Assembly (NCBI GenBank): GCA_947495295.1
Contig: CANLYJ010000004.1
Span: 1 to 64,000, forward strand
Length of the DNA stretch: 64,000 nucleotides
Origin: an uncultured Paracoccaceae bacterium
GTDB taxonomy: Bacteria; Pseudomonadota; Alphaproteobacteria; Rhodobacterales; Rhodobacteraceae
Direction: 5' to 3'
Position numbers and translations under genes: made by a program. Positions 58,495 to 61,809 of the stretch are shown one piece after another. Every line of letters starts with the position of its first letter. Positions within the stretch are counted from its first letter, which is position 1. The notes below the pieces were generated by a model. That model was not told the origin of the DNA. It saw only the letters and a list, made by a program, of their open reading frames with translations, and did no database searches.

Positions 58495-58995
58495 TTATTT
58501 GGGGGGTAGCGCGTCCAGTTTCTTGTACATCACAAAGGCATTCACCAACCCCTGCTGCGGATGGTTGAAGGCGTCGGGGATCGTGCCGATCGTGTCGAAC
58601 CCAAGCCGCCGCCAGAGCCGTACTGCACCGGTATTGCTGGCCAGTACGAAGTTGAATTGCATCGCGATGTAGCCCATGGACGCAGCCTGCGTCTGGCTGT
58701 GTTCGCACAGCTTGCTCGCCAGCCCATGACCGCGCGCGCTGGGCGCGACGATATAGCCGCAATTGCAGATATGCGCCCCGCCGCCGGGTTGGTTGGTCTT
58801 GATATAGTAGGTGCCGACGACCCTGTTTTCCGTTTCGGCCACGTAGGTTGCGGCGGCGCTGGTCATCCAATAGGCCTGCGCATCTGCCTTGCCGATCTGA
58901 GGGTCAACCGCATAGGTGTCACCCGCACGGAACACATCGCGCAGGAGCGGCCAGATGGCGTCAAAATCATCGGCCTGCGCCTGCCGGATGATCAT
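58495..58995 (-). CDS. GNAT family N-acetyltransferase
   Basis: The 166-residue protein has the GNAT pattern: MIIRQAQADDFDAIWPLLRDV, GTYYIKTNQPGGGAHICNCGYIVAP, then the acetyl-CoA loop ARGHGLASKLCEHS and NTGAVRLWRRLGFDTIG. The start at ATG 58995 overlaps the stop of mrp (ATGA), which fixes it; the longer open frame is an artefact of overlap. The substrate is unknown. Confidence 0.92.
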   Translation of the reverse strand: MIIRQAQADDFDAIWPLLRDVFRAGDTYAVDPQIGKADAQAYWMTSAAATYVAETENRVVGTYYIKTNQPGGGAHICNCGYIVAPSARGHGLASKLCEHSQTQAASMGYIAMQFNFVLASNTGAVRLWRRLGFDTIGTIPDAFNHPQQGLVNAFVMYKKLDALPPK

Positions 58996-60065
58996 GCCAT
59001 GCCGCCTTCGATAAACCTCCGCGCCAGAACGCCGTAGGCCTCTGCCATGGGGCCGTCGCCTGCAGCAATTGGCGTGCCGCCGTCGCCGGCAAGCCGCGTG
59101 TCCAGATCGATGGGCAGTGCCCCAAGGAAGGGTGCGTCGATCTTTTCCGCCTCTGCTGCGACGCCGCCACGGCCGAAAATGTCCCATTCGCTGTTGCAGG
59201 TGGGGCAGATGAAGGTCGACATGTTTTCGATCAGCCCCAGTACCGGCGTGTGCAGGTTGTTGAACATGTCAATCGCCTTGCGCGCATCAATCAGCGCCAC
59301 GTCTTGCGGTGTGCTAACGACAACGGCGCCGGTCAGTTTGGTTTTCTGGCAAAGGGTCAGTTGTACATCGCCGGTGCCGGGGGGCAGATCGACGATTAGC
59401 ACGTCCAGTTTGCCCCATTGCACCTGACCCAGCATTTGCTGCAATGCCCCCATCAGCATTGGCCCGCGCCAGACGACCGCCTTGTTAGGGTCCACCATCA
59501 GCCCGATCGACATCATGGTCACGCCATGGGCCTGCAGGGGGATGATCGTCTTGCCATCGGGGCTGCCGGGCCGTTTGGACACCCCCATCATCCGCGGTTG
59601 GGAAGGGCCGTAGATGTCAGCATCCAGCAGCCCGACTTTGCGCCCTTGCTTGGCCAAGGCCACGGCCAGATTGGAGGATACGGTGGATTTGCCCACCCCG
59701 CCTTTGCCAGACCCGATGGCAAGGATCCGGTCCACCCCGGCCACGGGTGCGGGCCCGGATTGCGGTGTTGGGTGCCGCCCGAGTTTGAGCTGGGGCGGTT
59801 CGGGTGCCTTGGCCGCGGGTCCGTGGGCTGTGAGGATGACCGACGCCTTATCGACACCGGGCAGGGCGCTGACCAGTTGTTCGGCGGCGCTGCGGATGCC
59901 TTCCATCTTGCTGGCGTCTTCAGGTGTGGCAGCTTCGATCACAAAACGGACAGTGCTGCCTTCGATTGTGAGCGCCCGCACCATATCAGCCGACACCAGA
60001 TCTGTGCCGCCGGGCAGGGTGAGTCGTGCCAATGCGCCCAGAATTTCATCGCGTGTCGTGGCCAT
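58992..60065 (-). CDS. Mrp/ApbC family iron-sulfur cluster carrier P-loop ATPase
   Basis: Mrp (ApbC/NBP35-like) proteins carry Fe-S clusters to target enzymes. The 357-residue protein has an N-terminal MIP18-like domain (ILGALARLTLPGGTDLV; about residues 1-80), the deviant Walker A GSGKGGVGKSTVSSNLA, LLDADIYGPSQPRMMG, LIVDLPPGTGDVQLTL and the cluster-binding CPTC. Start ATG 60065 is chosen by homology (MATTRDEIL). It is coupled to a GNAT gene downstream. Confidence 0.93.
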   Translation of the reverse strand: MATTRDEILGALARLTLPGGTDLVSADMVRALTIEGSTVRFVIEAATPEDASKMEGIRSAAEQLVSALPGVDKASVILTAHGPAAKAPEPPQLKLGRHPTPQSGPAPVAGVDRILAIGSGKGGVGKSTVSSNLAVALAKQGRKVGLLDADIYGPSQPRMMGVSKRPGSPDGKTIIPLQAHGVTMMSIGLMVDPNKAVVWRGPMLMGALQQMLGQVQWGKLDVLIVDLPPGTGDVQLTLCQKTKLTGAVVVSTPQDVALIDARKAIDMFNNLHTPVLGLIENMSTFICPTCNSEWDIFGRGGVAAEAEKIDAPFLGALPIDLDTRLAGDGGTPIAAGDGPMAEAYGVLARRFIEGGMA

Positions 60066-60312
60066 GGTGAACGCTCCGCTTAACAAAATGGTCGAATTGG
60101 AGGCAGTTTTGGGCGGCTTTTGGGCAAACCGCAAGGGCATGCGGCGTCATGCCCGGAATTGCGACGATTTCATGACAAAAGGTCAGGATTGCTTATGCAA
60201 ATTCTGCATAGCTGCGTTGCAGCAAAAAGTATTGTGCATACGCAGCATAATCATACATGTTAGCGGCAACAGGGCAAAACGCCCGTAACCGAATTAGACG
60301 AGAGACGAACCG
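60066..60312 (+). promoter_or_regulatory. Leader region of the CcaF1-like gene with stacked dyads
   Basis: Three dyads are stacked upstream of the DUF1127 gene. GGGCATG/CATGCCC lies at 60135-60154, TATGCA/TGCATA at 60194-60210, and GCTGC/GCAGC at 60211-60223. The downstream part is A-rich. In Rhodobacter the equivalent gene is driven by RpoH-type sigma factors; I cannot place -35 and -10 boxes with confidence here. Confidence 0.5.
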
Positions 60313-60528
60313 ATGGCATTTATCACAGACATCCGCGCCGGCGGCACATCATGGGGCGCACGTTTTGCAGAAATGCGTGCGCAATGGGCTGAAAACGCAG
60401 CCAAGCGCAAAGTATACCGCACAACACTGGCAGAGTTGGAAAGCCTGTCAAACCGTGACCTGGCTGATCTGGGTATCAGCCGTTCAATGATCAACAGCCT
60501 GGCTTTTGAAGCCGCATACGGCAAGTAA
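60313..60528 (+). CDS. DUF1127 domain protein, CcaF1-like
   Basis: The 71-residue protein has the full DUF1127 pattern in its C-terminal half (YRTTLAELESLSNRDLADLGISRSMINSLAFEAAYGK, in two parts), with basic residues around KRKVYR. In Rhodobacter sphaeroides the similar small protein CcaF1 binds RNA and helps mature the CcsR RNAs made from the same transcript. The same arrangement holds here: the seven CCUCCUCCC hairpins begin 12 bases after the stop. I infer co-transcription and the same role. Confidence 0.9.
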   Translation: MAFITDIRAGGTSWGARFAEMRAQWAENAAKRKVYRTTLAELESLSNRDLADLGISRSMINSLAFEAAYGK

Positions 60529-60539
60529 TTCAAGGATCG

Positions 60540-60569
60540 GATCGGCTGCCTCCTCCCTTTAGGCCGATC
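60540..60569 (+). ncRNA. Cuckoo-type hairpin 1
   Basis: Stem GATCGGC (60540-60546) pairs with GCCGATC (60563-60569). The loop carries CCTCCTCCC at 60549-60557. Confidence 0.85.
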
Positions 60570-60574
60570 TGAAT

Positions 60575-60611
60575 GACCCTGCGCTCTCTCCTCCTCCCTG
60601 AGCAAGGGGTC
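60575..60611 (+). ncRNA. Cuckoo-type hairpin 2
   Basis: Stem segments GACCC/GGGTC (60575-60579 and 60607-60611) and GCTC/GAGC (60583-60586 and 60600-60603) flank an internal loop. CCTCCTCCC is at 60590-60598. Confidence 0.82.
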
Positions 60612-60620
60612 GCCAATAAG

Positions 60621-60654
60621 GTGGCGGCGTCCACCTCCTCCCGGATGCCGCCAC
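60621..60654 (+). ncRNA. Cuckoo-type hairpin 3
   Basis: Stem GTGGCGGC (60621-60628) pairs with GCCGCCAC (60647-60654). CCTCCTCCC is at 60634-60642. Confidence 0.88.
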
Positions 60655-60668
60655 TTTAATGACCAGTT

Positions 60669-60703
60669 TCGGAACCGCCCACCTCCTCCCGGGTTGGAAC
60701 CGA
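60669..60703 (+). ncRNA. Cuckoo-type hairpin 4
   Basis: An imperfect stem pairs TCGG (60669-60672) with CCGA (60700-60703) and CCC (60678-60680) with GGG (60691-60693). CCTCCTCCC is at 60682-60690. Confidence 0.75.
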
Positions 60704-60709
60704 TAATAC

Positions 60710-60747
60710 CGCTGATGGCGCTCACCTCCTCCCGAGCAAGATCAGCG
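60710..60747 (+). ncRNA. Cuckoo-type hairpin 5
   Basis: Stem segments CGCTGAT/ATCAGCG (60710-60716 and 60741-60747) and GCTC/GAGC (60720-60723 and 60734-60737) flank a symmetric three-base internal loop. CCTCCTCCC is at 60725-60733. Confidence 0.87.
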
Positions 60748-60752
60748 AGGAC

Positions 60753-60786
60753 GCGCCTTTGCTCTCTCCTCCCTTTGAGCGGGCGC
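60753..60786 (+). ncRNA. Cuckoo-type hairpin 6 (variant loop)
   Basis: Stem segments GCGCC/GGCGC (60753-60757 and 60782-60786) and GCTC/GAGC (60761-60764 and 60777-60780). The loop has TCTCCTCCC (60765-60773), one base off the consensus. Confidence 0.8.
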
Positions 60787-60798
60787 TGATCAATAAAG

Positions 60799-60840
60799 AC
60801 GGCGATGCCCACCTCCTCCCGGGCATCGCCGTTTTGTTTT
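60799..60840 (+). ncRNA. Cuckoo-type hairpin 7 with terminator T-run
   Basis: A perfect 12-bp stem ACGGCGATGCCC/GGGCATCGCCGT (60799-60810 and 60821-60832) carries CCTCCTCCC at 60812-60820. A T-rich run follows, so the structure also serves as the intrinsic terminator of the whole unit. Confidence 0.9.
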
Positions 60841-60924
60841 TGGAGGGGGTGTTTTGCCGCCTGCTCTGTGCTTGCCTGTATTATGCAAAGGTGGCTAGGT
60901 TACCGCGAACGAGCGGAGTGGGTG

Positions 60925-61809
60925 ATGCGGGTAGTCTTTACGGGCGGCAGTGGTAAGGCGGGCAAATGGGCGATCCGCCATTTGCAGGCCCAAGGCCATC
61001 GGGTTTTGAATGTGGATCGCGTTCCATCGGGCCTTGATTGTGCGGAATTGCTGATTGATTTGTGTGATGCAGGTCAGGTGATTGGTGCCATGTCCCAGTT
61101 CACGGATTTTCCTGAATTGGATGAGGGCACGGGTGTTCCCCGCTATGATGCAGTGGTGCATTTTGCTGCCGTCCCCCGGGTCATGATCGGCACCGATGGG
61201 GAATGTTTCCGTCAGAATACACTGAGCACCTATAATGTGATCGAGGCTGCGACCAAGCTGGGTATTCCCAAGGTGATTTTCGCCAGTTCAGAGACGACTT
61301 ACGGCGTCTGTTTTGCCGATGGTGAGGTGAAGCCTGACTATGTCCCGGTTGACGAGGATCATCCGACCATTCCCCATGACAGCTATGCGATGTCCAAGGT
61401 CTGTAACGAGGCGACTGCCCGGTCCTTTCAGGCCCGCACAGGGGCGGATATTTACGGGTTGCGCATCAATAATGTGATTGAGCCGGATGAATATGCCCTG
61501 CATTTCCCGGCTTTCATGGATGACCCGGCCCTGCGCCGCCGCAATATCTTTGCCTATATCGATGCGCGCGATCTGGGCCATATGGTGGATTGTTGTCTGC
61601 GCACCGATGGGTTGGGCTATCAGGTGTTTAACGTGTCAAATGACGATATGTCGGTTGGCGTCACCTCGGATGTTGTGGCTGAACGGTTCTATCAAGGCGT
61701 TGAGATGCGGCGCGAGATGCGCCCGGATGAGACGTTTTATGCCAATGACAAGGCCAAGCAGATGGTTGGCTTTGCCCCGCAGCATTCCTGGCGGGATGTG
61801 TTGGGGTGA
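60925..61809 (+). CDS. NAD-dependent epimerase/dehydratase family protein (extended SDR)
   Basis: The 294-residue protein has the Rossmann loop VVFTGGSGKAGKWAIRHL, an early FAAVPRVM stretch, the Ser-Tyr-Lys triad in SSETTYG and YAMSKVCNEATARSFQ, and C-terminal VFNVSNDD, as in extended SDRs that act on nucleotide sugars or sugar acids. The substrate is unknown. Start ATG 60925 follows GGAG by seven bases, and homology starts there. Its TGA overlaps the GTG of the next gene, so it leads a coupled operon. Confidence 0.9.
   Translation: MRVVFTGGSGKAGKWAIRHLQAQGHRVLNVDRVPSGLDCAELLIDLCDAGQVIGAMSQFTDFPELDEGTGVPRYDAVVHFAAVPRVMIGTDGECFRQNTLSTYNVIEAATKLGIPKVIFASSETTYGVCFADGEVKPDYVPVDEDHPTIPHDSYAMSKVCNEATARSFQARTGADIYGLRINNVIEPDEYALHFPAFMDDPALRRRNIFAYIDARDLGHMVDCCLRTDGLGYQVFNVSNDDMSVGVTSDVVAERFYQGVEMRREMRPDETFYANDKAKQMVGFAPQHSWRDVLG

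Follow-up and report, generated by a model that had tools for sequence, protein, structure and literature searches.

A CcaF1-like DUF1127 gene in this 64,000-nucleotide stretch (the window) is followed directly, on the same strand, by seven adjacent hairpins (60537-60835, + strand), six of which present exactly the loop CCUCCUCCC. We think it probable that this is a CIN1-type alpha-r14/cuckoo locus whose transcript would be cut by RNase E into a three-hairpin and a four-hairpin anti-Shine-Dalgarno (anti-SD) small RNA (sRNA). It is a new arrangement of a known kind, real and well supported, and the surprise lies more in the unit rule, the common promoter box and the existence of an array without its protein gene than in the seven hairpins. 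The locus links the rhizobial three- and four-hairpin RNAs, the Rhodobacter ccaF1-CcsR operon and an LsrB-type box, which the accounts cited below describe separately.

Seven hairpins share one loop

Seven stem-loops with a common loop, exact in six, had been reported from a sequence-only reading, and we confirmed them (Table 1); the loop of the sixth hairpin, starting at 60765, reads TCTCCTCCC, that is UCUCCUCCC, and differs by one base. This variant recurs in 34 of the 44 seven-hairpin arrays of the genus. With the loops constrained open, every one of the seven hairpins folds and displays the motif in its loop. On both strands of the window, exact CCTCCTCCC occurs six times, always on the + strand between 60549 and 60820, and nowhere else, compared with a mean of 0.44 exact motifs (maximum 3) in 100 shuffled windows. 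A loop detector accepting up to one mismatch found one more + strand and three - strand hairpins in the whole window; these four have mismatched loops, as the window holds no further exact motif.

Folded without constraint, 60520-60850 reached -148.8 kcal/mol (z = -5.1; 0 of 100 shuffles were as good), with H4 reduced to a 3-bp remnant and its remainder paired with the 3' end. A T-rich tail (60832-60841) stands behind H7, which should end transcription, and hairpin and tail together are the probable terminator of the operon; a simple terminator scan, which covers loops of 3-8 nt, did not list H7 on the + strand. Loop-to-loop spacings (41, 44, 48, 43, 40 and 47) are mostly not multiples of 3, which rules out a protein-coding repeat. 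A switch between H5 and H6, in which GATCAGCG (60740-60747) would pair with CGCTGATC (60784-60791), was rejected on the genus alignment, where by eye the H5 arm varies and the H6 arm is constant.

Table 1 Features of the DUF1127-hairpin locus; w, weak stem; s, strong stem; arrow, predicted cut.
Feature	Position	Strand	Details
mrp/ApbC-type P-loop gene, divergent neighbour	58992-60065	-	
Box 1, TGCAAATTCTGCAT	60196-60209	+	TGCA-N6-GCAT; NfeR1-promoter LsrB motif
Box 2, TGCATACGCAGCAT	60235-60248	+	TGCA-N6-GCAT; 39 nt after box 1
DUF1127 gene, 71 aa, CcaF1-like	60313-60528	+	PF06568, 43 bits (cut-off 23.3)
Unit A (H1-H3), predicted ar14-type three-hairpin RNA	60532-60658	+	RF02344, 60.4 bits
H1	60537-60572	+	w, -16.5 kcal/mol; loop 60549-60557 exact
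H2	60575-60611	+	w, -15.5 kcal/mol; loop 60590-60598 exact
H3	60617-60658	+	s, -28.0 kcal/mol; loop 60634-60642 exact; proposed 3' hairpin of unit A
Linker ATGACCAGTT	60659-60668	+	CCAG↓UUUCGG; RNase-E-like AG↓UUU, predicted cut 60666/60667
Unit B (H4-H7), predicted four-hairpin RNA	60669-60835	+	RF02344, 51.4 bits, below gathering; unit order
H4	60669-60703	+	w, -11.1 kcal/mol; loop 60682-60690 exact
H5	60710-60747	+	w, -14.7 kcal/mol; loop 60725-60733 exact
H6	60753-60786	+	w, -14.6 kcal/mol; loop 60765-60773, TCTCCTCCC
H7	60796-60835, with T-rich tail to 60841	+	s, -26.6 kcal/mol; loop 60812-60820 exact

The first three hairpins match the ar14 family

The same reading had placed the array in a cuckoo/CcsR locus behind a DUF1127 gene and had named a covariance search as one check. 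With cmscan, the only above-gathering Rfam match in the window is RF02344 (ar14) over H1-H3 (gathering 58.8), and at a looser threshold a second ar14 match, below gathering, covers 60664-60836 with an insert over H6. The CcsR1 model RF02791 fails, with 25.4 and 23.5 bits against a gathering of 65.3. Because RF02344 lies above gathering and RF02791 far below, the RNA is, on covariance scores, of the ar14/cuckoo type in a CIN1-type locus and not made of CcsR1-type pairs; with the PF06568 match of the gene, this bears out the proposed relation to the cuckoo family. We take unit B as a relative and do not claim it as an ar14 member. A third ar14 match in the same genome (31.3 bits, G000:C3), just downstream of a gene named by eye as ilvH-like, was considered as a second array and set aside as chance; neither strand of its 3.1-kb locus contains CCTCCTCCC.

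Similar to alpha-r14/NfeR1 (RF02344; SmelC397), the first unit has three hairpins with CCUCCUCCC loops on variable stems, and over the whole array the loop is exact in 6 of 7 and one base off in the remaining one. NfeR1 is described as a trans-acting sRNA with its own promoter, whereas here a DUF1127 gene precedes the unit and a second unit, of four hairpins, comes after it. In Sinorhizobium meliloti, SmelA075 carries three and SmelA099 four hairpins with this loop (PMC3927594), matching both unit sizes; they are described as two RNAs, whereas here such forms stand as a tandem pair. The ccaF1-CcsR1-4 locus of Rhodobacter sphaeroides (CIN1, RF02791) is likewise described as a DUF1127 gene followed by a hairpin array; it differs in that the CcsR model has two motif hairpins and scores far below gathering here. 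AbcR1 and AbcR2 too are alphaproteobacterial sRNAs with anti-SD motifs, and AbcR1 is also described as activated by LsrB, but by description their motifs are similar, not identical, to those of NfeR1 (PMC10746234). Alpha-r14/cuckoo RNAs are described with 2-4 hairpins each (PMC4504443), which the seven adjacent hairpins fit if they are cut 3+4 as predicted.

Stem order and linkers suggest a 3+4 unit structure

A tandem-motif search was positive in 52 of 56 genomes of the sampled genus, which we infer to be Yoonia-like: all 51 genomes at least 90% complete and at most 5% contaminated were positive, and the four negatives are 72-88% complete. Folding the main arrays of all 52, which come from related genomes so that the counts are not independent, gave seven detected hairpins in 44, 6 in six, 5 in one and 11 in one. 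The detector misses loops with more than one mismatch, and several arrays scoring 5-6 contain a gap of twice the usual spacing, where a hairpin whose loop has decayed went uncounted.

With weak and strong stems divided at -20.5 kcal/mol, a cut set after the energies were known, stem order is wwswwws in 44 of the 52 arrays, wswwws in five, and wwsws, wwswws and wwswwwswwws in one each. The last, with 11 hairpins (G010), repeats the four-hairpin unit as 3+4+4. A named Yoonia sp. array (L145) is also wwswwws. The final hairpin exceeds the median stem strength of its array in all 52 genus arrays (22.3 expected by chance), in 22 of the 23 from other genera in the family and in 107 of 115 named arrays among the matches listed, those with any hairpin lacking a stable stem having been left out of the stem-order and linker analyses. 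The weak/strong rule is not universal, since 10 of the 115 named arrays listed, eight of them from Devosia, have no strong hairpin at this cut. Devosia arrays (L115, L150, L160, L209) carry two triplets per locus with no strong hairpin, unlike most other units. Beside its 3+4+4 array, G010 has a second one (L347, 1041-1176) of four motif hairpins, the first of which folds poorly.

The linkers were compared by the pattern RN↓WUU, which follows the RNase E cleavage consensus and was chosen after the sequences had been inspected. RNase E sites are described as enriched in A and U, with A/U at +1 and U at +2 in E. coli (PMC6238624). In genus linkers the pattern follows strong stems in 51 of 53 cases and weak stems in 6 of 255; beyond the genus the contrast is weaker (strong versus weak, 16/47 against 5/100 and 32/90 against 35/360), and linkers behind strong stems are longer there too. 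No RN↓WUU was seen by eye right after the DUF1127 stop. The named-genome scan, which required three exact loops and so excludes shorter arrays, returned at least 118 stretches and is no census; among its Hyphomicrobiales arrays of at least three hairpins (77 of those listed), 57 have exactly three and 12 exactly four.

Taken together, stem strength, what the linkers contain, the duplicated block and the occurrence of three- and four-hairpin forms in rhizobial RNAs and Hyphomicrobiales arrays make it probable that the array parses as a three-hairpin and a four-hairpin sRNA in tandem. The odd count had earlier been taken, for the case of two hairpins per mature RNA, to imply an incomplete or fused unit, an argument not supported by the 3+4 parse or its 3+4+4 relative. 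That the array is nonetheless cut into CcsR-like two-hairpin RNAs, one of them incomplete or fused, strikes us as improbable. R. sphaeroides is described as having four CcsR RNAs behind ccaF1 (PMC10253847), and other Rhodobacterales arrays among those listed often show weak-strong pairs; against this stand the low RF02791 scores, the order wwswwws with H3 and H7 as the only strong hairpins, and the concentration of RNase-E-like sites after strong stems in the genus. A partial literature search returned no report of a 3+4 parse or of single arrays with more than four adjacent hairpins. The proposed units give the array testable processing points.

Array size varies outside the genus

Tandem motifs were found in 216 of 295 genomes of the family sample (199 of the 260 of good quality), and arrays range from 2 to 26 hairpins. 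The array had been called expanded, with a comparison of hairpin number in relatives as one of the checks; given these sizes, seven is the usual state in the genus and mid-range for the family. At the upper end, 26 exact-loop hairpins span ~1.2 kb behind a DUF1127 gene (L048, G220), mostly as near-identical wws triplets of ~140 nt each, which is either a recent tandem amplification or an assembly artefact. Weak-strong pairs occur in several genera, for example as 16 hairpins in an uncultured Pseudoruegeria. By eye, the inter-unit linkers of pair-type arrays (L043, L053, L056 and others) seem able to form a short motif-less hairpin, which occupies the place of a motif hairpin in three-hairpin units; these positions may have lost or gained the loop motif. 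A class-level search matched 20 of 385 genomes, and most matches outside the family looked chance-like by eye.

Stems covary while loops keep a CCUCC core

Across the 44 seven-hairpin arrays, 61 of 90 base pairs show double changes, against a shuffled mean of 34.2. Pairing holds in 91.5% of 3823 cells, compared with 33-45% when the structure is slid, and the covariation score is 0.295, compared with 0.182 shuffled and 0.05-0.10 slid; the comparison favours the structure over its slid versions because it was voted from the same 44 sequences. Mean column identity is 0.94 for loops, 0.81 for stems and 0.68 for other unpaired positions, in line with the earlier argument that conservation centres on the loop.

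The last seven bases of the motif, UCCUCCC, are retained by 357 of the 360 loops from the genus and, in two further sets, by 169/170 and 560/565 loops. Motif mismatches fall at positions 1-2 in 100 of 109 cases, which is informative because the detector tolerates one mismatch anywhere. The 16S-like octamer CACCUCCU is present in 212/360 genus loops and in 9/170 and 102/565 of the further sets. The selected element is a CCUCC core with its own flanks, not the 16S-like CACCUCCU, and by complementarity the loops should prefer GGGAGGA over the ribosome-favoured AGGAGGU. Of the suggestion in the sequence-only reading that the loops mimic the 16S rRNA tail, the common CCUCC stands, and the extension to CACCUCCU does not match what is conserved. 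A true mimic, sequestering ribosome-binding sites generally or 30S-interacting factors, could draw on that CCUCC and on the tail GGATCACCTCCTT, found in 12 of 26 genus genomes although not in this assembly; we give it very little credence, because beyond the core the loops depart from 16S.

A pair of promoter boxes precedes the gene

The stretch before the DUF1127 gene, conserved in most of 32 aligned genus sequences, holds two TGCA-N6-GCAT boxes. In the NfeR1 promoter this motif is described as the site of LsrB (PMC10746234), and by motif match boxes 1 and 2, at 60196 and 60235, are putative LsrB-type sites. The GCAT of box 1 also starts a match, at 60206, to the VtlR box, given as GCAT-N3-TG-N3-T (PMC7486931); a relaxed form with (A/T)G in place of TG was adopted after the sequences had been inspected, and only the strict form is counted below.

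Searching the 450 nt before the first loop, we found one or more TGCA-N6-GCAT boxes in 51 of the 52 genus arrays; background windows gave 22 of 1743. Among the other arrays listed, such a box precedes 27 of the 31 from named Rhodobacterales and 26 of the 73 from Hyphomicrobiales. Two boxes 39-40 nt apart occur in 44 of the 52 genus arrays, in none of the 1743 background windows, in 14 of 31 named Rhodobacterales arrays and in 1 of 73 Hyphomicrobiales arrays among those listed; the single box is shared with alpha-r14/NfeR1 and the pair is a difference. The strict VtlR box marks Hyphomicrobiales arrays (38/73 listed) more than the genus (6/52), with 4/31 in Rhodobacterales and 52/1743 in the background. 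Genome-wide, the box pair was found in 45 of 56 genus genomes, once each except in this genome, where a further match differs in sequence. A partial literature search returned no report of the pair in Rhodobacterales. This genome also carries a box-1-like TGCATTAAACGCATAGCTGCCAT near a gene named by eye as efp-like (L399; G000:C1, 548241-548263), with no Rfam match nearby.

A TACAT-type -10 element, read by eye, suggests a transcription start near 60266. Such a start would put box 1 at about -70 to -57, and the LsrB box is published at -72 to -57 (PMC10746234); a sigma-70 scan gave no + strand site at 60000-61000. A simple transfer of LsrB control is opposed by two descriptions: LsrB is held to occur in Rhizobiales only (PMC11975290), so the boxes here may serve a different regulator, and ccaF1-CcsR is given as RpoHI/RpoHII-dependent (PMC10253847).

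Arrays persist without an adjacent DUF1127 gene

The predicted protein has the same length as that given for CcaF1 (71 aa; PMC10253847). DUF1127 adjoins the array, and an mrp/ApbC-type gene lies upstream of it, in 51 of 52 genus arrays each. The mrp-type gene was also seen with named Rhodobacterales arrays. In the exception for DUF1127 (G002, L010), no such gene was detected beside the array, the box pair lies directly before H1 and all seven loops are exact; the mrp-to-first-loop distance is 244 nt, compared with 480-521 in the other 50 arrays with mrp. Loss of the gene is the simpler reading, as the rest of the genus has it, and the G002 state indicates that array and promoter can persist without a neighbouring gene. 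Two other DUF1127 matches lie elsewhere in that genome. The named record Yoonia litorea DSM 29433 (L135) matches G002 in hairpin spacings and energies and likewise has no DUF1127 gene between boxes and array, offering a natural absence in which array and promoter are kept without the neighbouring protein gene. With adjacency defined as a tblastn match (0.01) within 120 nt, DUF1127 adjoins, among the arrays listed, 31 of the 34 from named Rhodobacterales and 20 of the 77 from Hyphomicrobiales.

These arrays bear on a purely cis-acting role, in which the hairpins stabilise or terminate the DUF1127 mRNA with no function in trans. The terminator-like H7 and the position of the array as a 3' UTR of the gene would suit that role, but we hold it to be highly unlikely: seven hairpins and a fixed loop are more than a terminator requires, G002 keeps array and promoter boxes in the absence of the gene, and Hyphomicrobiales arrays lacking adjacent DUF1127 are common among those listed.

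Proposed mechanism and targets

By homology, a DUF1127 protein and two anti-SD sRNAs would be expected under stress. In our preferred reading, one transcript from ~60266, probably stress-controlled, would run from the DUF1127 gene through H7 and encode the CcaF1-like protein. RNase E, probably modulated by that protein, would cut after the gene and at 60666/60667, releasing H1-H3 (ar14/NfeR1-type) and H4-H7 (four-hairpin, like SmelA099), each with a strong GC hairpin at its 3' end as a likely exonuclease shield. The UCCUCCC loops would pair with GGGAGGA-type SD regions and block translation, acting as redundant copies that raise valency and dose. The most likely function would be stress-induced silencing of purine-rich ribosome-binding sites.

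The three anti-SD loops of NfeR1 are reported to silence mRNAs redundantly, ntrB among them, by pairing at translation initiation regions (PMC10746234, PMC7143759). The ccaF1-CcsR transcript is described as cut by RNase E (PMC10253847), and CcsR RNAs as targeting flhR mRNA (PMC8307010). Accounts of the protein differ: CcaF1 is said to promote CcsR maturation in one (PMC10253847), and higher amounts of it to interfere with maturation in another (PMC8307010). Three GGGAGGAGG-N2-14-ATG sites were found in the genome, compared with one for a reversed control. One (L379) ends in the start codon of a 173-aa open frame; the other two fall within longer open frames, in one case antisense. With three sites and one at an open-frame start, a perfect-match regulon is not visible.

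The loops might instead mainly titrate a protein, CcaF1-like or another, rather than mRNAs. CcaF1 is described as binding RNA and acting on CcsR maturation (PMC10253847, PMC12501420), and many identical loops with a conserved core outside the 16S register would fit such a sponge. The counter-evidence weakens this alternative and does no more: G002 keeps seven exact loops without an adjacent DUF1127 gene, though with its two matches elsewhere; 57 of the 77 Hyphomicrobiales arrays listed have no adjacent DUF1127 detected; and NfeR1 loops are described as acting by mRNA pairing (PMC10746234). We consider it unlikely, and prefer silencing by loop-mRNA pairing.

A tentative modular design and arrays in viral contigs

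More broadly, and only tentatively, the arrays may follow a modular design, in which units of n weak hairpins and one strong hairpin carry UCCUCCC loops, and unit length (n = 1, 2, 3) and copy number (2 to 26 hairpins) evolve. Many arrays would stand under a LysR-type box common to two orders and phage contigs, the loops would read GGGAGGA rather than a general SD, and hairpin number would act as a heritable silencing dose. Unequal arrays behind like genes offer a direct test of loop number against silencing strength.

Ar14-type triplets with the strongest hairpin last were also seen in viral or proviral IMG/VR contigs, as 20 arrays on 19 contigs (L219, L224, L226, L254, L266, L279, L286, L289, L291, L294, L295, L297, L300, L302, L318, L323, L327, L331 and L335), several of them near-identical. 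A scan of 120 contigs had given 27 rows, of which 20 were kept by eye and 7 dropped as coding or low-complexity repeats; named phages gave no match for one query. RF02344 scored above gathering in all eight viral contigs scanned. Genes near the L226/L224 triplet are Sak4-like, processivity-factor, Cas4-type exonuclease, helicase and exonuclease genes, and by eye L286, L295 and L254 resemble these contigs. Of the 20 viral arrays, 12 have a TGCA-N6-GCAT box in the preceding 300 nt, at a distance of 84 or 90 nt from the first loop.
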